This document shows positions 29,088 through 42,004 of a DNA stretch of 42,745 nt, in pieces. Position numbers and translations under genes: made by a program. This stretch comes from Fusicatenibacter saccharivorans (GTDB taxonomy: Bacteria; Bacillota; Clostridia; Lachnospirales; Lachnospiraceae): positions 1 to 42,745 of the forward strand of contig NZ_JADNOP010000022.1 in NCBI RefSeq assembly GCF_015557635.1, given 5' to 3'. The notes beneath the pieces were generated by a model, which was not told the DNA's origin, ran no database searches, and saw nothing but the letters and a program-made list of their open reading frames with translations. How positions within the stretch are numbered: position 1 is the stretch's first letter; every line of letters begins with the position of its first letter.

Positions 29088-29738
29088 CTATTTTCCTCCA
29101 CGTTTTTTATAATCCTCATCTATACGTTTTTTCCAGTCTGCGTTCAACGGGGCACTGCACCGGACAGAGCTGATTGCTTCGCTGACCACCTCATAATTCA
29201 ACGCAGTTCCTTCGCTGTCGCACTGATAGTTGACTGCACGGTCTGCACCGATTCCGAACTGGCTTGCGGTCTCTACCGCGTCAATATTAGCACCGAGGAA
29301 CAAAAACTCCCAACCGTATTTCGCTTTCTGCCGCTCGATCATCTGCCTCACTTTTTCGCTGTTGTACCGGCGGCTGGCATTTTCCATTCCGTCCGTAGTG
29401 ATTACGAACATGGTGTGTTCCGGTACATCCTCCGGTCTTGCATACTTATGAACATTTCCAATGTGATGAATCGCACCGCCGATGGCATCTAAGAGCGCTG
29501 TGCATCCGCGAACTGTATAATCCCGGTCGGTCATCGGTCGGATTTTCTTTACATCTACACGGTCGTGCAGGACTTCACTCACATTGTCAAACAGTACCGT
29601 TGAGATCAATGCTTCGCCCTCTGCTTTTTTCTGCTGCTCAATCATAGAATTGAATCCGCCGATGGTGTCCCGTTCCAGTCCGTTCATGGAACCGCTGCGG
29701 TCTAAGATAAAAACGATCTCTGTTAAATTCTTTCTCAT
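29088..29738 (-). CDS. VWA domain protein with complete MIDAS
   Basis: A cytoplasmic von Willebrand A protein, about 216 residues. The metal-ion-dependent adhesion site is intact: DRSGSMNG near residue 13, Thr in RGCTALLDA (about 80), and Asp in TTDGMEN (about 117). It resembles the TerY-type small VWA proteins of stress and tellurite-type clusters. The start at 29738 has GGAGGAGG eight bases upstream; a TTG six codons earlier is less likely. It sits between the macrodomain gene and the dehydrogenase on the same strand. Confidence 0.88.
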   Translation of the reverse strand: MRKNLTEIVFILDRSGSMNGLERDTIGGFNSMIEQQKKAEGEALISTVLFDNVSEVLHDRVDVKKIRPMTDRDYTVRGCTALLDAIGGAIHHIGNVHKYARPEDVPEHTMFVITTDGMENASRRYNSEKVRQMIERQKAKYGWEFLFLGANIDAVETASQFGIGADRAVNYQCDSEGTALNYEVVSEAISSVRCSAPLNADWKKRIDEDYKKRGGK

Positions 29739-29754
29739 ATGCTTGTCCTCCTCC

Positions 29755-29927
29755 AAAAAGATCTCGCCCTTGCGGGCTCGCTGTCGCGGTATTCGCCAAG
29801 GTTTCGAGCAAGCTCGAACTTTGGCTCATTACACGCGCATATGGCTGCTCGGTTTTGTACCTTACAGTCATAGTATAGCGATTTTCTTTTGTGGAGTGGT
29901 CGCATGGAAAGCGACATTTCTTTGTTC
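29755..29927 (-). promoter_or_regulatory. Leader of the VWA gene with hairpins
   Basis: On the minus strand a TATACT -10 box (29872-29877) has a poor -35. Downstream are a perfect TTCGAGC-AA-GCTCGAA hairpin (29803-29818) and a GCCCGCAAGGGC hairpin (29766-29777) followed by ATCTTTTTGG, which runs directly into the ribosome site. It could be an attenuator or a leaky terminator between the macrodomain and VWA genes. Confidence 0.4.
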
Positions 29928-30944
29928 TTATGCTCCGATCAGACTCTGGTCAAAGGCAAACAGTGCCTCGTTAATTTCATACACATTATAGTTTCCCCGT
30001 TCGACAAAATATTCTACAATGATGTCAAATTTACTTGAATGGGACAATGTGAATCCTGCCTTGCCGAGCATCTCCTGCATCTGGGCAAGCGGCAGCTCCA
30101 AAGCGAGGGCAAATGCCAGCACCGTAGGTTTGGATGGCTTATAGAATCTATCCGAACGGATTTTTGAGAAGAGCTTCCTGTCAATATTTGCTTTCTTGTA
30201 GCACTGTGCATCCGTCATACCGCTTTCCTCAATCTTTCGAAGCAGCATTTCTGAAAAGCTCTCATCCATCTGCCCCAGCGCCTCTTCCAGAGACTGACTG
30301 CTGCAGGATTTACAAATTGCTTCGGGCGGCAGCGGGACAGATGCAGCTTCAAAGCAGGATTCCTCTTGCCATGCTTCGGAACACCGACTCTGTTCTGCCC
30401 TCCTGTCGGTATGTTCTTCCACATACCTGTCATCTATGTACACTGCGATGTCATCAAACAGCTTTCCGCTAATCTGATATGTCTTTCGGTCAAAAATAAC
30501 GATATAGACCATCATCTCGTTTTCCAGCAAAAATTCGCTGATGGTATCGACTGCAACCTTCAGAGCCTGGTCTTTTGGATAGCCGTAAACACCGGAGGAA
30601 ATCAGCGGAAAGGCTACAGACTGACAGCCATTTTCTTTCGCCAGATTCAAAGATGTCCGATAGCAGGATTCCAGAAGCTCCTGCTCCCGATGCCTGCCAT
30701 CCCGCCAGCGCGGACCGACTGCATGGATCACATATTTGCAGGGCAGACGGTATCCCTTTGTAATTTTTGCACTGCCGGTTTCGCAGCCATGCAGCGTACG
30801 GCATTCTGCAAGCAGTTCCGGTCCGGCCGCACGATGAATGCAGCCGTCCACACCGCCGCCGCCCAAAAGGGACGTGTTGGCAGCATTGACGATTGCGTCA
30901 ACGTTCATTTTTGTAATATCGTTTCTGATCATTTGCAACGGCAT
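29928..30944 (-). CDS. Macrodomain (ADP-ribose-binding) protein with C-terminal helical/HTH-like domain
   Basis: A 338-residue protein. Residues 1-170 form a macrodomain of the YmdB/MacroD type, with [20 protein letters not shown] (ADP-ribose site), HAVGPRW and [12 protein letters not shown] in order, as in enzymes that remove ADP-ribose or deacetylate O-acetyl-ADP-ribose. A low-complexity linker with several Cys follows. The last about 110 residues are helical, with a Cro/XRE-like stretch ([20 protein letters not shown]). I start at 30944, where GGGAGG lies eight bases upstream. The neighbouring VWA gene recurs with this type of protein. Confidence 0.88.
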
Positions 30945-30969
30945 GAAGCACCCCTCCCATTCGTCCAGC

Positions 30970-30992
30970 AGTTGAAAATCAACATTAGTAAA
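30970..30992. repeat. 23-base direct repeat, copy 1
   Basis: AGTTGAAAATCAAC plus ATTAGTAAA; the first part is itself an inverted repeat (GTTGA-AAA-TCAAC). It lies just upstream of the macrodomain gene. Copy 2 at 31127 has one mismatch. Confidence 0.75.
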
Positions 30993-31076
30993 TAGAATAT
31001 CCCATAACATAAGCTTCTTTAAAAACACTTTGATTCTTGACTCCAGGAACTTTATCGAGATATTCCATGTCATTAC

Positions 31077-31110
31077 TTGCAATCTTAACTCTTTTTAAGT
31101 TAAGATGCAA
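31077..31110. repeat. Inverted repeat upstream of the macrodomain gene
   Basis: TTGC-A-ATCTTAACT pairs with AGTTAAGAT-GCAA, 13 bp with one bulged base and a 7-base centre. No T tract follows, so an operator or cruciform is more likely than a terminator. Confidence 0.5.
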
Positions 31111-33292: not shown

Positions 33293-33350
33293 AATAAAAA
33301 ATATAGGTGCAGAAATTAAAGCTGTTTGCTTTATCTCTACACCTATATTA
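33293..33350 (-). terminator. Terminator after the LysR gene
   Basis: On the minus strand a stem of 20 or more pairs (AATATAGGTG...CACCTATATT with an inner AAAGC/GCTTT) followed by TTTTTATT. Confidence 0.85.
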
Positions 33351-33386
33351 TAATTTTCTAATTGAATTATATCAAATACTTAGTTT

Positions 33387-34277
33387 TTATGGTTTGTCCA
33401 TGCCTAAAAAGCATTGAATATGTTTGATGAATTTTGTGGTTGCTAAGCTAAACGGCTGACCACGTTTCCATGCTAATACACTTGTTGCTGTAAGTGGCGG
33501 ATCAAGCGGTCTGAATGTAACCTTTGATTGATTCCAGAACGGTACAGCCCCTTCAATCACCAATGAATATGCCAAGCCTCCATTCACCATAATTGCGCTG
33601 TTCGTACTTAAATTGCTGGTAAAAACAATATCCAGTTTCTCATAGTAGTTGCCAAACCAACTTGCCAACTCACTCTGCACATTCATACGCCTAGGAAGAA
33701 TCAAAGGCAGTACAGACAAATCTTTTGCGCTTACCGTTTCTTTCTTGGAGAGTGGATCATCCGATTTCATCAGAACCACCCATTTTTCCCTTATATTCAA
33801 GCGAATAAATTCATATTTTTCCATATCAACCGGCTCAAGAAGCAAACCAATATCCAGTAGTCCCTTCTCCATTTGTTCCTTTACCAAATCTGCTGTGGCT
33901 GTAAAAATGTCAAAAGTAACACGGGGATATTTCCGACGAAAGGACTCAATTATTTTAGGAAGAAGTTGTACAGCAGCAATTTCTCCACACCCAATGGAAA
34001 TTTTACCTTCCACCTGTTCCTCTTGCTCCACTAATTCTTTTTCTGTCTTATCTACAAGCTGCAAAATTTCTTCCGCACGACGGCGAAGAAGTATTCCTTC
34101 ATTTGTCAATTTGATTTTCCGTGTCCCTCTATCAAACAGCTTTACACCAATATCTTCCTCCATCTGTGCAAGCTGACGTGAAAGTGTCGGCTGCGTGATA
34201 TGTAAAACTTCTGAGGCTTTTGTGATACTTTCTTCCCTTACTACAGTCAGAAAATATCGAAGAACTCTAATTTCCAC
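33387..34277 (-). CDS. LysR-type regulator, likely of the MATE unit
   Basis: A 296-residue LysR regulator of the CynR/GltC-like group. The HTH is at residues 1-60 (RYFLTVVREESITKASEVLH and TQPTLSRQLAQMEEDIG). The effector domain follows from about residue 91, with the usual GLLDIGLLLEP segment. It is upstream of, and in the same direction as, the small protein and the MATE pump but separated from them by a strong terminator, so control rather than cotranscription is likely. The inducer is unknown. Confidence 0.93.
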   Translation of the reverse strand: MEIRVLRYFLTVVREESITKASEVLHITQPTLSRQLAQMEEDIGVKLFDRGTRKIKLTNEGILLRRRAEEILQLVDKTEKELVEQEEQVEGKISIGCGEIAAVQLLPKIIESFRRKYPRVTFDIFTATADLVKEQMEKGLLDIGLLLEPVDMEKYEFIRLNIREKWVVLMKSDDPLSKKETVSAKDLSVLPLILPRRMNVQSELASWFGNYYEKLDIVFTSNLSTNSAIMVNGGLAYSLVIEGAVPFWNQSKVTFRPLDPPLTATSVLAWKRGQPFSLATTKFIKHIQCFLGMDKP

Positions 34278-34521
34278 GAAAAATACCTCCCAAATTCATC
34301 ATGCTTAATAAGTATATTTTAACGTATCTATACTCGAAAGGCAATAAAAAACATCTGCTCATCGTATGCTTACCGGTAATATAATTTTATGTAAAACTTG
34401 ATAAACACCTATCATTTAATCGTTCTGTCTACATTGTAGAGCGGGGAAAATCGAAAAACAATGGACGGAGTACAAGTCCTTCCAAGAGGGATAAGAAAAC
34501 TTCTGAATGGGTAAACAGTGC
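34278..34521. other. Intergenic stretch with no convincing gene
   Basis: Left of the radical SAM terminator lies 244 bases of AT-rich, then purine-rich sequence. A short plus-strand frame ending QWTEYKSFQEG looks like the last residues of a lost gene, but nothing upstream supports it. A likely LysR leader and promoter region lies at 34278-34320. Confidence 0.3.
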
Positions 34522-34564
34522 TAAAAAAGGTTCTGACATTGAAGCACAGCTCCATGTCAGAACC
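34522..34564 (-). terminator. Terminator of the radical SAM gene
   Basis: On the minus strand a perfect 11-bp stem (GGTTCTGACAT / ATGTCAGAACC) followed by six T residues. Confidence 0.93.
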
Positions 34565-34579
34565 CATTTATTTCACAAA

Positions 34580-35497
34580 TTATTTTTGGGGGTTGCGTCG
34601 CCCGGTGTTTTCCGAGCCACGCACTTCCTCATGGTAAAAGTAATCCACAATGACCGGGTGCCCAGGCTCTGCTCGTCCGTAGGGCAGCTCGTTGTCCACG
34701 AAGGGACAGCTGTTTTCTTTCGCCAGCCGTTCCGCTTGATCCTCCAAACCACGGAAGTAGCTTCTGTCTCTCTTGTTGTAGATAGCGTCGTACAGCGGAA
34801 CCAAGTCAGGATGTTTTTTACGTATATAGTCAAGGATGTCTTTTTTGAATCCGCCTCGCAGGTTTAGATTTTCTAACCATATCAGGTCGCATTGATTTCT
34901 GACCTGATGGAAGATAGCCTCAAAATCCGTGATACCCGGAAAGACAGGGGCAATAAAGCAGACGGTGCAAATGCCCGCATCATAGATCTGCTTCATGGCA
35001 TCCAGCCGTCGCTTGATGCTGACGGCATTGTCCATATCATTTCTAAAGCCTTCGTCCAATGTATTGATCGACCAAGAGACCGTGACCTTTCCCAATTTTT
35101 TCAGAAGGTCAATGTCACGGATTACCAAGTCTGACTTGGTACAGATGAGAATTTCTGCTTCACTGCCCCGGAGCTGTTCAAGAAGCTTTCGGGTGTTCTG
35201 AAACTGAGCCTCCTGGGGCAGATATCCATCGGTCACTGAACCGATGACTACGCGCTGCCCTTTGTATTTTTGCGGATTTTTGATTGCTGGCCAATGTTTC
35301 ACATCCAGGAATGTCCCCCACGGTTCGGTGTGCCCGGTAAATCGCTTCATAAACGAGGCGTAGCAGTATTTGCAGCCATGGGTACAGCCCACATAAGGAT
35401 TGACGGAATAGCCTCCCACCGGCAGGGCGGATTTTGTCATAATATTTTTGGTTTCTACATCCTGAATCAGAATGCTGCTCTCTTTTACTTCTGTCAT
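34580..35497 (-). CDS. SPL-like radical SAM protein
   Basis: A 305-residue radical S-adenosylmethionine protein. The cluster motif CTHGCKYCYA is near residue 40. It resembles the spore photoproduct lyase-like/Rv2578c group (COG1533), common near other radical SAM and DUF5131 genes, with no confirmed reaction for most members. I start at the ATG at 35497 (GGAGG ten bases upstream). The frame stays open further upstream, where another gene's C-terminus lies in a different frame. The start overlaps the TGA of that remnant as ATGA, so the pair was once coupled. Confidence 0.9.
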   Translation of the reverse strand: MTEVKESSILIQDVETKNIMTKSALPVGGYSVNPYVGCTHGCKYCYASFMKRFTGHTEPWGTFLDVKHWPAIKNPQKYKGQRVVIGSVTDGYLPQEAQFQNTRKLLEQLRGSEAEILICTKSDLVIRDIDLLKKLGKVTVSWSINTLDEGFRNDMDNAVSIKRRLDAMKQIYDAGICTVCFIAPVFPGITDFEAIFHQVRNQCDLIWLENLNLRGGFKKDILDYIRKKHPDLVPLYDAIYNKRDRSYFRGLEDQAERLAKENSCPFVDNELPYGRAEPGHPVIVDYFYHEEVRGSENTGRRNPQK

Positions 35498-35707
35498 GTC
35501 TTCTGTTCCTCCAATACCCGGTAAAAAGCCGGGGGAAATTCTTGTACCATCTGTGCCTCTCCCATAATAGGAAGCAGATCTTCCTTCATAAATACAGGGA
35601 TGCCAAGCGAATGGGCCTGATGTGTCAGGTTCCACACCCATTCCGGTTTCAATACGGCTTTGCCCTTCCTATGTCCGGTCTCAGTCCCAATGACGATCCA
35701 CTCAATT
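35494..35707 (-). pseudogene. C-terminal remnant of a DUF5131-like radical SAM family protein
   Basis: About 70 codons in frame, beginning IEWIVIGTETGHRKGKAVL, then an HSLGIPVFMKED stretch and a VLEEQK tail. This is the pattern of the C-terminus of DUF5131 (phage Gp37/Gp68-like) proteins. It is cut sharply at 35707, where the frame meets a stop and the flavin reductase end follows 45 bases on. The first three quarters of the gene are missing. The junction marks a deletion or insertion boundary. Confidence 0.7.
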
Positions 35708-35751
35708 TAATACAAACAGCCACCGCTGATGCCGCCTTACCGTTTTAAGAT

Positions 35752-36255
35752 TTAGCCTTCTGCCGCAGGTGCAACTTTCCCGAAGCCGTTCCAGGCATAC
35801 AGGCCCTTCTTGTCCCCATCGCCCAGGAACTTGTCCACCTGACAGATGTGCAGGATATGGTCGCCCACCTCCACCGACTGCTGCAAGGTAGCCACCATCG
35901 CCAGCCGGGTGTCCGCCGGAATCTGGATGTCGCTGCCCTCCACAGCCATCATCTCGATGTTGTTGGCGGCCACCTTATCGGTCTCGGCACCGGTAGATGC
36001 TCCGCAGGCCATTACTGCGCCTGCCAGACTCTCACCGGGAACAGTGACAATGACTTTGCCGGTCTCACGCACACGCTTGCCGGTGTGGGACTGTTTGCCA
36101 GTGGCGAAGCCCACCATAGGCGGATTGAAGGAGAGGTAAGACACAAAGCAAATGGGAGCCAGGTTCGTAGAACCATCCTCCTTTTTAGAGCAGATCAGTG
36201 TCAGCGGATTGGGGGAGGTCAGAACAGTAGCCTCCATAATGTTCAGTTCTTTCAT
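35752..36255 (-). CDS. Flavin reductase-like (FMN-binding split-barrel) protein
   Basis: A 167-residue flavin-binding split-barrel protein. Block 1 (PNPLTLICSK, then a VSYLSFNPPMVGFA stretch) and block 2 (GKVIVTVPGESLAGAVMACG) are those of the flavoredoxin/FlrA-like group. The protein probably binds FMN and moves electrons between NAD(P)H or ferredoxin and a partner. It is divergent from the HxlR regulator, with a clear promoter between them, the classic layout for HxlR control by redox or electrophile stress. Confidence 0.9.
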   Translation of the reverse strand: MKELNIMEATVLTSPNPLTLICSKKEDGSTNLAPICFVSYLSFNPPMVGFATGKQSHTGKRVRETGKVIVTVPGESLAGAVMACGASTGAETDKVAANNIEMMAVEGSDIQIPADTRLAMVATLQQSVEVGDHILHICQVDKFLGDGDKKGLYAWNGFGKVAPAAEG

Positions 36256-36318
36256 AAAATTCAGACCTTTCTAAGAGATTTCAGTCGTTGACTGTATGGC
36301 CAACCAGTGATATATTTA

Positions 36319-36346
36319 TTATATCTGATAGTAATTTTTGTTCAAG
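36319..36346 (-). promoter_or_regulatory. Flavin reductase promoter
   Basis: On the minus strand TTGAAC, a 16-base spacer, then TATAAT. It sits in the middle of the divergent region shared with the HxlR gene and is a likely HxlR target. Confidence 0.7.
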
Positions 36347-36409
36347 TACGCAAATTATTTATACCTGGTATCAAAAAATATACTGCAAAAGACGAGGAAC
36401 GATCCAATT

Positions 36410-36763
36410 ATGACTTATGAAGAATTCAAAGAAAAGGTTGGCAGTGTCATTCTAACCGGCGAGGGAAACTGCCCGGTCACGCCGGTGGTTCAAATGCTGC
36501 AGGGCAAATGGAAACTCCAAATTCTCTATGAACTGTGCATCAAGTGTCCTATGCGGTTTGGGGAACTGAAAAAAGTTCTCAAACCCATTACCAACACAGC
36601 TCTGACCAACGCGCTGAAAGAGCTGGAAGCGGACGAATTGGTTCAGCGTATCCAATATAATGAAATGCCTCTGCGAGTGGAGTACTCCCTCACCGAAAAA
36701 GGGCGGGACCTGCTGCCGGTCTTTTACGCCATTTCCCAATGGGGAATGAAATATATACCATGA
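36410..36763 (+). CDS. HxlR-type regulator
   Basis: A 117-residue winged-helix regulator of the HxlR family. Cys22 lies in GEGNCPVTPVVQMLQGKWKL (the redox-type Cys of the HypR/YodB group is near this place), followed by MRFGELKKVL and a wing with MPLRVEYSLTEKGRDLL. I use the ATG at 36410; an upstream ATG at 36338 would add 24 unusual residues. The gene is divergent from the flavin reductase, which it probably controls. Confidence 0.9.
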   Translation: MTYEEFKEKVGSVILTGEGNCPVTPVVQMLQGKWKLQILYELCIKCPMRFGELKKVLKPITNTALTNALKELEADELVQRIQYNEMPLRVEYSLTEKGRDLLPVFYAISQWGMKYIP

Positions 36764-36793
36764 TTCTAACTATATTAATATCTGCCTGATAAT

Positions 36794-36836
36794 AGCCGGG
36801 AGGCATTGACAATTTGAGTCAACTTCCCGGCTTTTT
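36794..36836 (+). terminator. HxlR gene terminator
   Basis: AGCCGGGA-G-G pairs with C-TTCCCGGCT with an inner TTGA/TCAA, followed by five T residues. Confidence 0.85.
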
Positions 36837-36930
36837 ATGCATTCTCTACTGCTGCAAAGGATTCAGGAAGCAACCTGATTCATGAGAGTTTATGCATTTG
36901 TATAGTCATTTTGAACCTGCTCCGAAATCG

Positions 36931-37767
36931 TCATACCTCACACGCCTCCCGGAGAGCAGGCAGCAGCTCATCCAGCCGCCCGTCCAGTCCGAAGGACTTC
37001 TCTTTGATATTGTCCGCAATGTAGATCTCCCCCAGATTGATGGTCACATAAGTGGCGTTTGGCTCGCCGGCCACCAGGCGCATCATCGGAGCCTTGATCA
37101 GCTGATTGCGCCAGCCAATGCCCAGCTCCAAAACCACCAGTTTCTTCCCGTGGTAGGTTTTCAGAAAGTTTTGGAACCGTGCCTGGGCAGCGGTATCCGG
37201 AATCATTCTCTGACCCGCACCCATGTGGATGTCCATGGGACCGCCGCACTTGGGACAGCGCGGCACCAATTCTGTAGGCACATGACCGCTCTGTTCAGCA
37301 GCCGATAATTTTTCTGCCACCTCCAGACTAGGATATATGGTGTCGTGGCAGGGGCGGGCACACTGCATAGTAAACCAGTTGCCCTCAATCTCATAGATTT
37401 TCGTCGGATCGAAGCCACACAGTTCAAAGTGACCTTCTCCGTTTGATGTGACGACAAAGTAATCTTTCTCTCCCACAATGGCCTTCAAATCGTTCATCAC
37501 CGGCGTAGGCTGGTACTGCCCGCAGTAATGATGGATGAGCCGAGCCCAGAAGGCCCATTTTTCCTCCTCGCTGGGCCATCCAGCCATCATGCCCTGCAAA
37601 ATACACCCAAGGCCGTATTTCCGTTTAAAATCCCCAAACAGTCTTTCAAAGGCTGCATTGTCCGCAAACAAATGCAGTCCTTCGGTGATGGACAGTCCGT
37701 TACTGGCCCCGATCAAGATAGCGTCCGCTTCTCTGAATTTTTCCGCAATAGGGTTCCAATCAATCAT
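36931..37767 (-). CDS. Class M-like sirtuin paralog 1 (Glu at the catalytic His position)
   Basis: A 278-residue Sir2-fold protein. The NAD loop is GASNGLS (residues 20-26), the TSNGEGHF segment at 107-114 replaces the usual TQNxDxL, and the catalytic-His position carries Glu (IEGNW, about residue 128). Four zinc cysteines are present: CARPC (136-140) and CPKC (171-174). It is probably not a deacylase; by family analogy it is an ADP-ribosyltransferase or an NAD-binding partner. It is the third gene of the operon, 16 bases after paralog 2, with AAAGGGG nine bases before its ATG. The changed TTN motif makes it the most divergent copy. Confidence 0.87.
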   Translation of the reverse strand: MIDWNPIAEKFREADAILIGASNGLSITEGLHLFADNAAFERLFGDFKRKYGLGCILQGMMAGWPSEEEKWAFWARLIHHYCGQYQPTPVMNDLKAIVGEKDYFVVTSNGEGHFELCGFDPTKIYEIEGNWFTMQCARPCHDTIYPSLEVAEKLSAAEQSGHVPTELVPRCPKCGGPMDIHMGAGQRMIPDTAAQARFQNFLKTYHGKKLVVLELGIGWRNQLIKAPMMRLVAGEPNATYVTINLGEIYIADNIKEKSFGLDGRLDELLPALREACEV

Positions 37768-37783
37768 ATTCGTTCGCCCCTTT

Positions 37784-38665
37784 CTATTTTATGTTTGCTG
37801 CGATGGAGCGCTCCTGCCGGAGGGCAGCTAGAGTTTCCGCCAAATCTCCTTGCAGATACAGGCTGCGTCCCCGCAGATGCTCTGGCCTATGAGATGACTC
37901 TCGATTAAGACATGCATAAAAGACGTTTTCATTTTTGGCAGTAAGTTCCCAGAAGGGCAGTTTGATGATACTGGGCGTCATCTCACCCACGCCAAGTTCC
38001 AACAGCAGGACTTTTTTGTCGGACTGATCCATTATCCAGCGTCGCAGGAATCTATGGTAGCGGTGCAGGTTATCCTGCCAGAAGGTTCCCTCCAGAAAGG
38101 TATCATCTCGTACCCAAGGCACCAGCACCCGCCCGCAATCCGGGCAACGAGGAACAGCCTCCTCCGGCAGGCGAACACCTGCCAGGCAACCAGTCAGTTC
38201 CTTCACCAGTTCGCGGTTTTCCCAAATATCATCCCGACAGGGCTGGCTGCACTGGCAATAGCTAAAGTCTCCCTGAAAGGCGCAAATTTGTTCCTGGGGA
38301 AATACCCGAAAAAACTGCTGATCGACATTAGTGGTCAGCACAAAGACCGGTTTATCTGCAACAAGCGTTTGCAGATCCAGATAGGGCTGCCCCGTAGGGG
38401 CTTCCCACATGAAGCGGATATATTGACTGTAATACCCCCACTGTTCCCCATAGCTGGAAAAGCAATGGTAGAATCCAGCCAGCGGAGAGGTAAAGCCATA
38501 CTGTTCGCGAAAGGGAGCCAATGCCTCCGAAAGTGCCGGGGACCAATGGTAGTGGTCGTATCCAGCCGCGTTTGACAGGCCGGAGCCGCCTCCGATCACA
38601 ACAGCATCTGCTTGATCAATACGCTCGGCAAGTTCCTGAAGCGTCGCTTGGTTTGCAACCCTCAT
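37784..38665 (-). CDS. Class M-like sirtuin paralog 2 (Gln at the catalytic His position)
   Basis: A 293-residue Sir2-fold protein. GGGSGLS (25-31) is the NAD loop and TTNVDQQF (111-118) the NAD/substrate loop. QGDFSYCQCSQPC puts Gln131 at the catalytic His position and is very like the corresponding QGDY segment of SirTM proteins. Zinc cysteines are C139/C143 and C174/C177. SirTM proteins ADP-ribosylate lipoylated GcvH-L in S. aureus and S. pyogenes; no GcvH-L or lipoate ligase gene is here, so the target is open. It overlaps paralog 3 by four bases (ATGA). Confidence 0.88.
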   Translation of the reverse strand: MRVANQATLQELAERIDQADAVVIGGGSGLSNAAGYDHYHWSPALSEALAPFREQYGFTSPLAGFYHCFSSYGEQWGYYSQYIRFMWEAPTGQPYLDLQTLVADKPVFVLTTNVDQQFFRVFPQEQICAFQGDFSYCQCSQPCRDDIWENRELVKELTGCLAGVRLPEEAVPRCPDCGRVLVPWVRDDTFLEGTFWQDNLHRYHRFLRRWIMDQSDKKVLLLELGVGEMTPSIIKLPFWELTAKNENVFYACLNRESSHRPEHLRGRSLYLQGDLAETLAALRQERSIAANIK

Positions 38666-39642
38666 CGATCGTTATCTCCGCTGTCCATGGTATCCCGTGC
38701 ATCCCGCAGCACTTGAGCAATGTCGGCCACAATGGTCATGCCCTTGTCCTCCAACTGCTTGGGCAGGAAGTCATACTTGTTGTTGACAGCAATATATCGA
38801 GCATGGGGAAAGCTGAGGGTCATGTTCCAGAAAGGTTCTTGGATAAACATGGGAGTCATTCGGCCCACGCCCAGCTCCAGGAACAGAATTTTGCTGTCTT
38901 TGTGTTCCAGCACATAGCGAGAAATTTTTTCGTACTGTTCTTCGTATTTCTTTCCTTGCAGAAAATTCCCATATCCTCGCACCCAAGGGAATGCCTCACC
39001 GCCGCAGTGAGGGCACCGGGGAATGAGATCCGTGGGAATCTTCGTGTCACTCCCCATAGCGGCTACCATATCAGCCACCGGCTTTACCGCATCCCAAGTG
39101 TCATCGGTACAACAGGCGGCACACTGGAAGAAGCGGTGATCCCCCTGAATCTCTGCCACCTTCTCCTCCGGGTAGAGTTTGACAAACTGGGTATCCTGGT
39201 TCGTGGTGAGGATGAAGAAGTCCTTGCCTTTCAGCAAAGCGTCTAAATCCAAATAGGAATGACGCACAGGTGCGGTCTGGGTGGTGTGAAGGAATGTGGC
39301 GAGATACCCCCAATACTCTTCCCTTGTCTTCCAGGGGTGCATCATCCCTGCAAAAGCACCTTTGAAGTGGTACTTCTCGGCAAAAGGGCGGAAGTATTTG
39401 CGGTAAGAGTCGTTGTCCTCGTAGTAAAAATCTCCACCACCGGCAGCGGACAGGCCGGAGGCCCCGCCCACTACCACACAGTCAGCTTCCTTTACCTCCT
39501 GTACCAAACGATGGATCTGTTCGCTATACGGCAGCGGCTTTTTGTCAGTCAGCTGATAAGGCGTACCGCCGGAAGCATAGATATGATAGTGCCTGGAATA
39601 ATTCATCTGGGTCTGCATGACCAGATCATCATAGAAGTTCAT
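38662..39642 (-). CDS. Class M-like sirtuin paralog 3 (Gln at the catalytic His position), first gene of the operon
   Basis: A 326-residue Sir2-fold protein with about 50 extra N-terminal residues, helical and Tyr-rich. GGASGLS (59-65) is the NAD loop and TTNQDTQF (146-153) the NAD/substrate loop. Gln166 in IQGDH is at the catalytic His position. Zinc cysteines are C174/C177 or C178, and C210/C213. I use the ATG at 39642 (AAAGGA nine bases upstream). It is the promoter-proximal gene; the three copies differ enough to be old duplicates rather than a recent triplication. Confidence 0.88.
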   Translation of the reverse strand: MNFYDDLVMQTQMNYSRHYHIYASGGTPYQLTDKKPLPYSEQIHRLVQEVKEADCVVVGGASGLSAAGGGDFYYEDNDSYRKYFRPFAEKYHFKGAFAGMMHPWKTREEYWGYLATFLHTTQTAPVRHSYLDLDALLKGKDFFILTTNQDTQFVKLYPEEKVAEIQGDHRFFQCAACCTDDTWDAVKPVADMVAAMGSDTKIPTDLIPRCPHCGGEAFPWVRGYGNFLQGKKYEEQYEKISRYVLEHKDSKILFLELGVGRMTPMFIQEPFWNMTLSFPHARYIAVNNKYDFLPKQLEDKGMTIVADIAQVLRDARDTMDSGDNDR

Positions 39643-39665
39643 TGTCACCATTCCTTTCAAGTGGG

Positions 39666-39678
39666 TGTTATTTTTATT
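39666..39678. promoter_or_regulatory. Probable Rrf2 operator, sirtuin side
   Basis: TGTTATTTTTATT on the plus strand, downstream of the sirtuin -10 box near the expected transcript start. The same 13 bases occur in inverted orientation at 39732-39744. Confidence 0.55.
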
Positions 39679-39691
39679 CTTACTTCAAATT

Positions 39692-39720
39692 ATTTTAGCA
39701 TCCTCTTGCGTCACTGTCAA
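39692..39720 (-). promoter_or_regulatory. Sirtuin operon promoter
   Basis: On the minus strand TTGACA, a 17-base spacer, then TAAAAT: near consensus. Its spacer contains the -35 box of the divergent Rrf2 promoter. Confidence 0.8.
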
Positions 39721-39734
39721 TATGTTGTTATAAT
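39706..39734 (+). promoter_or_regulatory. Rrf2 gene promoter
   Basis: TTGCGT, a 17-base spacer, then TATAAT. The -10 box overlaps the second copy of the 13-base operator, suggesting autorepression. Confidence 0.75.
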
Positions 39735-39744
39735 AAAAATAACA
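39732..39744. promoter_or_regulatory. Probable Rrf2 operator, regulator side
   Basis: AATAAAAATAACA, the exact reverse complement of the box at 39666-39678. It overlaps the Rrf2 -10 region. Confidence 0.55.
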
Positions 39745-39769
39745 TCAAAGCAAAAAAGGAGATCAGGCT

Positions 39770-40312
39770 ATGAAATATTCTACCCGCCTTAGCGATGCTG
39801 TTCATATTCTGGCTTTTATCGCTCTGTACCCAGACTGCGACCTGACCAGTAACAAGCTGGCAGAGAGCATTCAGACGAATCCTGCCTATGTGCGCCAGCT
39901 CATGTCCGCCCTGCGGAAGGGAGGACTGCTGGTCAGCGTGAAGGGACATCCCCGACCTGCTCTGGCTCGTGAGCCGGAGAAAATCACTCTACTGGATGCC
40001 TATCGGGCAGTAGAGGGCAACAAGCCCCTGCTCCATCAGGACATCCACACCAATCCTGCCTGTGGCGTGGGTGTAAATATTCAACTGGTGCTGCGGGATT
40101 TTTACTTGGACATTCAAAAAACAGCGGAACAAAGAATGCAAGGAATCACGTTGAAAGATGTGCTGGAACAATATCACATGACTCCCATTGGTTACTCCTG
40201 TCCTTTTGCCAAACGTATGCGGGAGCTGGTGCAGAAAGAGATAGGTGATGGTGTCCGTATCTTGGATTACACCCATGACGCTGGTCCTGAACCAGAAATA
40301 TTTCAGAAGTAA
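39770..40312 (+). CDS. Rrf2 family regulator
   Basis: A 180-residue Rrf2 winged-helix regulator. The HTH covers residues 1-65, with TSNKLAESIQTNPAYVRQLM as the recognition region and GHPRPALAREPEKITLLD as the wing. A single Cys in NPACGVGVNIQ (about residue 99) stands at the YwnA-type position, not in the three-Cys IscR cluster pattern. The C-terminus is about 40 residues longer than usual and has another Cys in SCPFAKRM. Redox or electrophile sensing is plausible. AAGGAG precedes the ATG. It is divergent from the sirtuin operon. Confidence 0.92.
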   Translation: MKYSTRLSDAVHILAFIALYPDCDLTSNKLAESIQTNPAYVRQLMSALRKGGLLVSVKGHPRPALAREPEKITLLDAYRAVEGNKPLLHQDIHTNPACGVGVNIQLVLRDFYLDIQKTAEQRMQGITLKDVLEQYHMTPIGYSCPFAKRMRELVQKEIGDGVRILDYTHDAGPEPEIFQK

Positions 40313-40365
40313 AGTTTCTTTTTCCTTCAGCCTATGGTAAGATAGACTTTAAGGAGGAGTGCTAA

Positions 40366-40752
40366 ATGATTCAGAACCCCTTACCACACGACCACGGACA
40401 AACTATCGAGCAGGAACTGGAACATATGCCCAGCGTAGAAAACTTTCAAACCGTAGCTGATATTTTCAAGCAGCTGGGGGATGGCAGCCGTATTCGCATT
40501 TTTTGGTTGCTTTGCCACTGTGAGGAATGTGTTATCAATCTTTCAGCCATGGTAAATATGAGCAGTCCTGCAGTTTCTCACCATCTCAAGCAGTTGAAAT
40601 CAGCAGGTCTGATCGTTAGCCGCCGGGACGGAAAAGAGGTCTATTATAAAGCGGCCGATACCGAGCAGGCCCGAAATTTCCATCACATGATTGAGTGGCT
40701 TGTAAAAATCGCCTGTCCGTCGCAAGTAGAAAAACAAAAAGGAACGCCATGA
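40366..40752 (+). CDS. ArsR/SmtB family regulator with CxC motif
   Basis: A 128-residue winged-helix repressor. LGDGSRIRIFWLLCHCEECVINLS carries CHCEEC, a candidate soft-metal site, followed by SSPAVSHHLKQLKSAGLI as the recognition helix and the wing RRDGKEVYYKA. An N-terminal His-rich stretch (PHDHG) could add ligands. This is the CadC/SmtB/NmtR-like group, but no metal pump lies beside it. AAGGAGG is seven bases upstream. Its TGA overlaps the ATG of the AraC gene, so the two are translationally coupled. Confidence 0.92.
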   Translation: MIQNPLPHDHGQTIEQELEHMPSVENFQTVADIFKQLGDGSRIRIFWLLCHCEECVINLSAMVNMSSPAVSHHLKQLKSAGLIVSRRDGKEVYYKAADTEQARNFHHMIEWLVKIACPSQVEKQKGTP

Positions 40753-41771
40753 AAAAAGAAGAATCCAAAGTTATCGCTCAAAAATTTCAAAAGATTCCAA
40801 ACGGCACCCTCGCCTTGAAGCATTGCCGGGCTGGCGGAACGGGTACCACACTCTTTGGAGAACAGTTTCGAGCGGTTACCGCTGGAAAAGGGGTTATGGA
40901 GGCATATGAAACTTTTCCTGGAATAGAGGTATCCTTCAATGTTTTTCTTGCTTCAGAGATCAAGTTTCAGCATGATGCTTCGGATTCTGTTTTAGAAATT
41001 TACTATTGTTGCAGTGGTCGCGTGGGTTGGAATATGCAAGACGGTACTGCCGTCTATTTAGGTAGAGGTGATGTGACAGCACACAGTATGGCCTGCTGCG
41101 CGGATTCCGCCATGATGTTTCCCCTAGGATATTCAGAGGGAATTTCCATTTCCGTGGATCTGAAACAGCTCTCTTCCATTTGCCCGGAAGTTTTAAAGAA
41201 TGCCGGTGTGGAGGCAGACCAGTTACGGGATCGATTTTGCTCCGGAAAGCCATCCGCAATCCCGTCCTGTTCCGATTTAGAGCATATTTTTGCTCCACTC
41301 TTTTCTGCTCCTGTATCCGTTCGAATTTCCCTCTTGAAATTGAAGGTGCTGGAAATTTTGATTTATTTGAGCAATATGAAATCGGAGCATAAAGAATTGA
41401 CTCAATACTTCTCCCAGCAAACCGAATTGATAAAAGAAATTCATCAACAGTTGACAGAGCACTTGGATCAACGATTTACGATTGCAGAACTTTCCAAACA
41501 GTATTTGATAAATACCTCCACTCTAAAGGAGATATTCAAGGCAGTCTACGGCCAGCCTATCGCCACCTATATGAAGGAATTTCGAGTGCGTCAGGCTATG
41601 AAATTATTACGGGAAACAAATGACACTATCGCGGATATTGCTTCCCAGGTAGGCTACCAAACCCAGGGGAAATTTTCAAGCGCTTTTCAGTCTATAGTCA
41701 AAATGTCACCCAGAGAATACAGAAAAATCCAGGGTATAGCTCCATCGGATTCCTTTAGCAAAACACTGTAA
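40749..41771 (+). CDS. AraC-type regulator coupled to ArsR
   Basis: A 340-residue AraC-family activator. The first about 220 residues are a sensor part with many Cys (CCSG, CCAD). The last 100 form the double HTH: FTIAELSKQYLINTSTLKEI, then NDTIADIASQVGYQTQGKFS and the typical SPREYRK end. AAAGGA is seven bases before the ATG. The ArsR-AraC coupling suggests that the metal or thiol sensor sets the level of this activator. Targets are not visible; the gene is the last intact one before the remnant region. Confidence 0.92.
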   Translation: MKKEESKVIAQKFQKIPNGTLALKHCRAGGTGTTLFGEQFRAVTAGKGVMEAYETFPGIEVSFNVFLASEIKFQHDASDSVLEIYYCCSGRVGWNMQDGTAVYLGRGDVTAHSMACCADSAMMFPLGYSEGISISVDLKQLSSICPEVLKNAGVEADQLRDRFCSGKPSAIPSCSDLEHIFAPLFSAPVSVRISLLKLKVLEILIYLSNMKSEHKELTQYFSQQTELIKEIHQQLTEHLDQRFTIAELSKQYLINTSTLKEIFKAVYGQPIATYMKEFRVRQAMKLLRETNDTIADIASQVGYQTQGKFSSAFQSIVKMSPREYRKIQGIAPSDSFSKTL

Positions 41772-41866
41772 TGAAAAATTCTGGTAGACTACTGCCAACA
41801 AAGCCAAGTTCTTCACTTTTGATGTATAGTCAATCAGCGTTGTCATCCTAATCTGTGCTGACTGCA

Positions 41867-42004
41867 TCAGCAGCCGTTTTCCACATACTGAACATAGGAG
41901 ATCAAACCGTCTGTTCTTACAGCATCCAGTGTTTTTACGCTGATTCCCAGTATACTGGCTGCTTCCTTCCTTGTAATCAGTTTATCCATCGCCTTCTTCG
42001 TCAT
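41867..42004 (-). pseudogene. Excisionase-type HTH remnant
   Basis: A 45-codon frame whose core DKLITRKEAASILGISVKTL is a helix_turn_helix_17/excisionase (Xis) DNA-binding motif, ending YVQYVENGC. Intact relatives continue for another 15-20 residues, so it may be truncated. No integrase is near. The start is not firm: ATG at 42004, or at 41989 in better context. Together with the following fragments it marks a scar of mobile DNA. Confidence 0.5.

Follow-up and report, generated by a model that had tools for sequence, protein, structure and literature searches.

Class M sirtuins (SirTM) have been described from Streptococcus pyogenes and Staphylococcus aureus. According to the accessible parts of Rack 2015 (PMC4518038; PDB entry 5a3a), SirTM and macrodomain genes form operons that are either independent or extended, with Lachnospiraceae among the listed hosts, and the activity of SirTM drops dramatically when Asn118, Gln137 or Arg192 is mutated. 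One macrodomain taken from a minimal operon is unable to demodify GcvH-L, as stated in the available text of Ariza 2024. Here, we analyze a tandem operon of three sirtuin genes (A, B and C) from Fusicatenibacter saccharivorans (Lachnospiraceae). It is located on a stretch of 42,745 nucleotides (contig NZ_JADNOP010000022.1 of assembly GCF_015557635.1), referred to as the window. Compared to the known systems, this operon is unusual in that Zn-Macro is absent and a paralog with Glu at the catalytic position is present. The conserved unit is C plus A, with B being optional. This macrodomain-free pair is probably a class M variant not known before, an ADP-ribosyltransferase with a Glu co-subunit. 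The three genes, all open reading frames (ORFs), are:

36931-37767, minus strand: gene A, a sirtuin of 278 aa with Glu128 at the catalytic position and Glu111 at the position of Asp120.
37784-38665, minus strand: gene B, a class M-like sirtuin of 293 aa with Gln at the catalytic position.
38662-39642, minus strand: gene C, a class M-like sirtuin of 326 aa when started from ATG, with catalytic Gln166, Asn148, Asp150, Arg222 and a Cys4 site.

The genes are transcribed in the order C-B-A. C and B overlap by 4 bp, the start of B lying over the stop of C, and a gap of 16 bp separates B from A. For C, an alternative upstream TTG would yield 332 aa; at its N-terminus, the protein carries a conserved extension (about 40 aa). 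An earlier note on the window had described three consecutive sirtuin paralogs devoid of the catalytic His, with Gln in two and Glu in the third, each within an xGD/xGN segment next to a Cys4 zinc site. The ORFs and motifs at 36931-39642 bear this out (EGN in A, QGD in B and in C, each followed by a Cys4 site).

By sequence, by fold (A and C) and by tree, the three proteins are class M-like sirtuins. Profiles from Pfam and NCBIfam barely detect them. When PDB is searched with phmmer, the best match of each is S. pyogenes SirTM 5a3a (E-values 1.1e-40 for A, 6.9e-40 for B and 4.3e-45 for C), the second being a fungal SirTM fusion (8rsn, Mfs1 SirTM). Human SIRT5 is encountered with C only at E-values of 0.04 and higher and is absent with A up to E 10; for B, the search depth was E up to 0.1. 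The AlphaFold2 models of A and C have a predicted local distance difference test score (pLDDT) of 95.1 and 93.3, respectively. When these models are used for a fold search, 5a3a ranks first, with template modeling (TM) scores of 0.86-0.89 for A and 0.76-0.86 for C.

Phylogenetic trees were computed from A, B, C, SirTM-like and CobB rows, leaving out references of classes I-IV and U as well as human sirtuins. A first tree of 110 rows had long branches and placed CobB beside B/C at 93/88, and thinned trees of 66 and 70 rows were used instead. In the 66-row tree, each of the families A, B and C forms a clade, as do the SirTM-like sirtuins of the bacterial family, and the S. aureus SirTM groups with the SirTM-like clade (support 94/79). 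CobB is split off by a branch of length 6.44 with full support (100/100); this length ranges from 6.25 to 6.44 over the thinned trees. The 70-row tree agrees, with clade B being weaker (86/47). An approximately unbiased (AU) test on this tree neither shows nor rejects A, B and C as a single clade (p 0.156), which leaves the branching order of these three and SirTM uncertain. As judged from sequence, A, B and C are thus three separate families, as the earlier note had proposed in speaking of three different sirtuins, and its concern that they might fall among the deacylases is answered by their separation from CobB. Among the 23 SirTM-like rows taken as canonical, 15 adjoin a macrodomain match (coordinates compared by eye). 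Two divergent canonical rows without Gln (L027, L028) were left out of both thinned trees. The CobB set consists of 21 of the 29 SIR2 loci, as a motif filter removed eight (L156-L163). The genome of the window encodes its own CobB-type gene, which is its one SIR2-family match. Genomes G001-G006 of the same genus, and also G010, encode a further, weaker member of the SIR2 family (about 250 aa; L157-L163), which is not listed for G000.

The named relatives are the best 80 of 240 found with C in GTDB species genomes; many are contigs from metagenome-assembled genomes (MAGs), and flank lengths vary. Three loci of the 88-locus set (L035, L037 and L038) repeat L128, L125 and L109; they were left out of the residue, regulator and operator counts. 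For the residue counts, 24 pieces (below 230 aa or with more than one X) were also dropped, and 5 of the 164 rows kept for A, B and C contain an X. Residue numbering follows S. pyogenes SirTM (Rack 2015, PMC4518038). The catalytic His is found in none of the 164 rows (one C row reads X) and in all 21 CobB-type rows. B has Gln at this position in 22/22 rows and C in 80/81, the remaining row being the one that reads X; A has Glu in 61/61. All four zinc-binding Cys are kept in every row except for one A row, which deviates at the first Cys. The equivalents of Asn118, Asp120 and Arg192 are present in 81/81 rows of C. B retains Asn and Asp in 22/22 and Arg in 19/22.

Family A is different. Asn118 has its equivalent in 61/61 rows, and the position of Asp120 is occupied by Glu in 59 and by Asn in two. 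The column of Arg192, the residue that contacts Gln137 in SirTM, does not hold Arg in any of the 61 rows, nine of these being gaps. In seven of the 61, an Arg lies within three columns, so that a shifted Arg is possible there and its loss rests on the alignment. The pyrophosphate loop reads GIGWRN in A, compared to GVGx[NT]TP in SirTM. The earlier note had taken the missing His as the hallmark of class M. This holds for the class M-like character of all three proteins by sequence, fold and tree and for the Gln of B and C. It does not hold for A, as the hallmark residue of class M is Gln and not Glu, and several active-site positions of A differ from class M. Values of w from 0.05 to 0.25 correspond to purifying selection on A, B and C (values from 10 of 12 comparisons). 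The three comparisons for A gave 0.10-0.25; decay of A was rejected on these values together with its fixed Glu. With fixed residues and low w, A looks like a fixed variant rather than a decaying copy.

Gene order among relatives identifies the conserved unit. When loci with flanks of 2 kb or more on either side of C are counted (59 in total), A is nearby in 54, whole or as a piece, and B in 20; the triple is thus one form of a C plus A core. The commonest orders among the 80 loci and the window are C-A (36/81) and C-B-A (12/81). The survey proposed in the earlier note hence does find the triple elsewhere, while the unit that is conserved is the pair. A search of 250 genomes of the bacterial family agrees with this. 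C has a match (E up to 1e-90) in 19, of which 14 score at least 566 bits, three are partial (G179, G208, G252), and two score 312-353 bits and may not be true C (G257, G267). A scores at least 365 bits in 17 genomes. Sixteen of the 19 C genomes have a strong A at most 1.2 kb away on the same contig, and 16 of the 17 strong A go with C (coordinates compared by eye).

Hosts among the best 80 of 240 include Lachnospiraceae, Faecalibacterium, Gemmiger, Fournierella, Desulfovibrio, Collinsella and a Succinivibrionaceae MAG. The operon is also found in cultured gut species, e.g., Coprococcus catus and Blautia luti. Copies in Faecalibacterium sp. I4-1-79 (complete chromosome) and in Clostridium fessum share 98% identity with C from the window, pointing to recent transfer. 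A megablast search with window positions 33300-42000 gave no plasmid match, and C matched a single record in a phage collection, an unverified contig. Locus L049 (8384-9623) of G003, a genome of the same genus, contains fragments of all three sirtuin genes next to an apparently whole Rrf2 gene, which looks like decay of the operon in this sister species.

Lipoyl partners were searched for in the operon and in the whole genome, which is 99.98% complete. The earlier note had reported that they are missing, and this extends to the genome: LplA has no match genome-wide, GCV_H has none over the cut-off (two weak matches score 20.9 and 20.5 bits against 22.2), and Zn-Macro (NF003163) has none over the cut-off. 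Given these absences, the lipoyl mechanism probably cannot operate here. Queries for GcvH-L and LplA2 also gave no match in the 88 loci (three of them repeats), which answers the concern of the earlier note that these genes might always accompany the operon in relatives. The queries were taken, as S. aureus proteins, from L167, where the ORFs other than the sirtuin and the macrodomain protein are presumably GcvH-L, LplA2 and the rest of the operon, named from size and order. This record (OR849908.1), which also provided the S. aureus SirTM of the trees, is titled Staphylococcus phage SA 1298 Kay; it carries an S. aureus-like SirTM operon and is probably chromosomal contamination. As the partners GcvH-L and LplA2 were not found, membership in the extended SirTM operon was rejected. 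The earlier note's picture of known SirTM operons, in which a single sirtuin is accompanied by GcvH-L, LplA2 and a macrodomain, is incomplete: it describes the extended form, and operons of SirTM and macrodomain lacking GcvH-L and LplA2 are published (available part of PMC4518038) and occur in this bacterial family. The operon and such a SirTM/Zn-Macro pair are both present in G027, G031 and G032, and the operon alone in G000 and G033.

Macrodomain queries match four of the 88 loci: L111, where the gene adjoins a sirtuin of the SirTM clade; L075, at a contig end by a sirtuin piece; L039, more than 11 kb away; and the window, with the following gene:

29928-31082, minus strand: a MacroD-type macrodomain gene with a C-terminal extension of unknown kind, scoring below the Zn-Macro cut-off.

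It was considered as the missing eraser and rejected, being of MacroD type and 6 kb from the sirtuins; in addition, G033 has the tandem without any NF003163 match. YmdB and MacroD1 fail to reverse the SirTM mark according to the accessible text of Rack 2015 (PMC4518038). Macrodomain ORFs of similar length are found in several relatives, of which some lack the sirtuins. The MacroD-type gene is followed by one for a small protein that weakly matches VWA (29088-29756, minus strand).

The operon is flanked by a divergent regulatory gene and by predicted control elements:

39692-39720, minus strand: a sigma-70-like promoter, TTGACA-N17-TAAAAT with TG, matching 11 of 12 positions.
39726-39744, no strand: an operator-like dyad, TGTTA-N9-TAACA (motif match).
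39770-40312, plus strand: an Rrf2-family regulator, divergent from the sirtuins (ORF and profile match).

Among the 76 named loci whose sequence extends 1 kb or more upstream of the first sirtuin gene, a divergent Rrf2 gene lies next to it in 58, a TetR gene in eight and neither of them in ten. Cys98 is the sole invariant Cys in 61/61 Rrf2 proteins (from the 58 adjacent loci, the window, L039 and L049). The dyad TGTWA-N9-TWACA is present in 59 of 61 Rrf2/sirtuin intergenic regions, the exceptions being two Collinsella loci (L117 and L121); shuffled sequences have it in 0.085 on average and in two at most. In the window, it lies 5 bp upstream of the predicted promoter of the sirtuin operon. The promoter pattern itself occurs twice in 301 bases, with a shuffle mean of 0.9. 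As reported in the available part of PMC9218516, HypR and SifR bind sites of the type TGTAA-N9-TTACA, the SifR site being a near-palindrome of that form, and SifR senses quinones via a single Cys, C102. The window protein scores 39.7 bits against the HypR equivalog, far below the 180-bit cut-off. By its conserved Cys and its TGTWA-N9-TWACA operator, the regulator is classed as a putative thiol sensor of the HypR/SifR type. The invariant Cys and the operator type point to redox control of the operon, with oxidants or electrophiles as the likely inducers. The last approximately 40 aa of the window Rrf2 match the end of a CGGC-domain protein, an apparent in-frame fusion; in relatives such as L058, the CGGC-domain protein is a separate gene behind Rrf2.

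We propose that these sirtuins derive from class M and that their operon is redox- or electrophile-induced, with C and B as transferases and A as their Glu partner; we give this reading an even chance. In the resting state, by analogy to HypR and SifR, the Rrf2 repressor would sit on the operator beside the promoter, and modification of its single invariant cysteine would release it. C, together with B where present, may then mono-ADP-ribosylate a non-lipoyl protein using NAD+. C and B are candidate transferases as they keep the Asn, the Gln and (C always, B mostly) the Arg that SirTM needs. Lipoylated GcvH-L is an unlikely acceptor in this genome. A, nearly always found beside C, would be its partner and most likely a co-subunit in a putative complex, where its altered NAD site may tune or complete the activity of C.

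Several points weigh against this proposal. The characterized SirTM set, with lipoylated GcvH-L as target and Zn-Macro as eraser, is absent, and with no eraser dedicated to it, the modification would run in one direction. The loops of B and C are near misses of GVGx[NT]TP (GVGeMTP and GVGRMTP, respectively), both lacking the N/T. C is accompanied by neither A nor B in four of the 59 loci and by B alone in one. The operator motif also occurs in five of the 21 loci where no adjacent Rrf2 gene was detected, its conservation is inflated by kinship of the loci, and the genome has no wider regulon signal (3 operator sites, compared to 6 in a reversed control). Finally, A could be catalytic instead of being a subunit.

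Among the alternatives, C/A may be a regulated NAD+ glycohydrolase for stress or defence, active only as a mixed complex, which we consider unlikely. The tight linkage of C and A would fit, and so would FAM118A and FAM118B, which, in the accessible part of PMC12700824, are very weak singly and much more active together. FAM118, however, retains the active-site His (same source), while B and C retain the Gln and Arg of SirTM type; the regulator is of redox type, and A, B and C match no PADLOC model at E up to 1. An anti-phage system was rejected on the latter result.

Similarly unlikely is that A has an enzymatic activity of its own, with Glu as base or ribose-holder, hydrolyzing ADP-ribosyl bonds or NAD and, as an eraser, replacing the macrodomain. 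Glu serves as base or ribose-holding residue in ADP-ribosyltransferase-fold (ART-fold) transferases and in CD38. The residue pattern of family A is consistent with such an activity (Glu and Asn118 invariant, Asp120 mostly replaced by Glu, the Arg column empty of Arg), except that the Arg loss depends on the alignment in the seven rows noted above. An eraser role would fit the absence of Zn-Macro over the cut-off from the genome of the window and of any NF003163 match from G033 (listed as 99% complete). The fold is silent on reaction direction, and we know of no sirtuin that removes ADP-ribose, which counts against an eraser. In its most far-reaching form, with a still smaller chance of being right, family A would comprise sirtuins with a catalytic Glu; C would write ADP-ribose and A would erase it or handle an NAD intermediate, replacing the macrodomain in redox signaling of gut anaerobes. 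To our knowledge, this would be the first sirtuin family with a catalytic glutamate.

It is very improbable that the trio represents divergent deacylases whose active site is unusual: weak matches to PRK00481.1-3 (E 7e-7 to 5e-6, 26-29 of 243 bits) speak for it, but the fully supported long branch to CobB and the absent His speak against this identity, and the genome has a separate CobB-type gene. An ordinary SirTM system with its lipoyl partners elsewhere in the genome is hardly tenable, as the class M kinship that favors it is opposed by the absence of LplA matches and of GCV_H and Zn-Macro over the cut-off from a nearly complete genome.

In the window, genes for HxlR, a flavin reductase and the radical SAM mobile pair B (34580-36763) are located next to the sirtuins; these adjoin sirtuins in other genera as well (L056, L061, L062). 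Radical SAM mobile pair A is present in these three loci and was not found in the window. Elsewhere, MinD/CooC-like ATPases, MoxR-type AAA, CobT-like VWA and DUF3786 proteins adjoin the operon (L037, 8441-14584; L038, 11697-14795; and others), possibly representing a metalloenzyme maturation system. Matches to ATPases are partly generic and occur in 24 of the 88 loci. A C_GCAxxG_C_C redox protein is encoded between A and C in L035 (identical to L128), L037 (identical to L125), L130 and L133, and beside a lone B-like sirtuin in L040. It has no match in the genome of the window and was therefore rejected as target there.

The accessible parts of the open-access literature on class M sirtuins, on tandem SirTM and on sirtuins linked to Rrf2 or to C_GCAxxG_C_C proteins contain no description of such a system that we found. 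In the available text of PMC11820453, SirTM is expanded as "Sirtuin from Thermotoga maritima" and tied to telomere maintenance, which is at odds with Rack 2015.

As to related systems, the regulatory region shares with HypR/SifR the 19-bp dyad TGTWA-N9-TWACA, and one Cys is invariant, in line with SifR, which reacts through a single Cys; HypR uses two Cys and controls a different target operon (PMC9218516, available part). FAM118A/FAM118B provide an analogy only, that of paralogous sirtuins working together; according to the accessible text of PMC12700824, they are ThsA-like, keep the His and are from vertebrates. The minimal SirTM/Zn-Macro pair (Rack 2015, Ariza 2024) is hosted by the same bacterial family, three genomes carrying both systems. 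It consists of one Gln sirtuin and a macrodomain, while two or three sirtuins without a macrodomain are found here. With SirTM from S. pyogenes and S. aureus (Rack 2015, 5a3a), the proteins share the fold, Asn118 and Cys4, and B and C also share Gln137 and mostly Arg192. They differ by forming a trio operon of several paralogs without Zn-Macro, GcvH-L and LplA2, by the Glu of A and by their separate clades. The Glu family is widespread, under selection, linked to a Gln paralog and apparently freed from lipoyl chemistry and a macrodomain eraser, and the operon thus offers a natural contrast to SirTM for the roles of Gln137 and Arg192.

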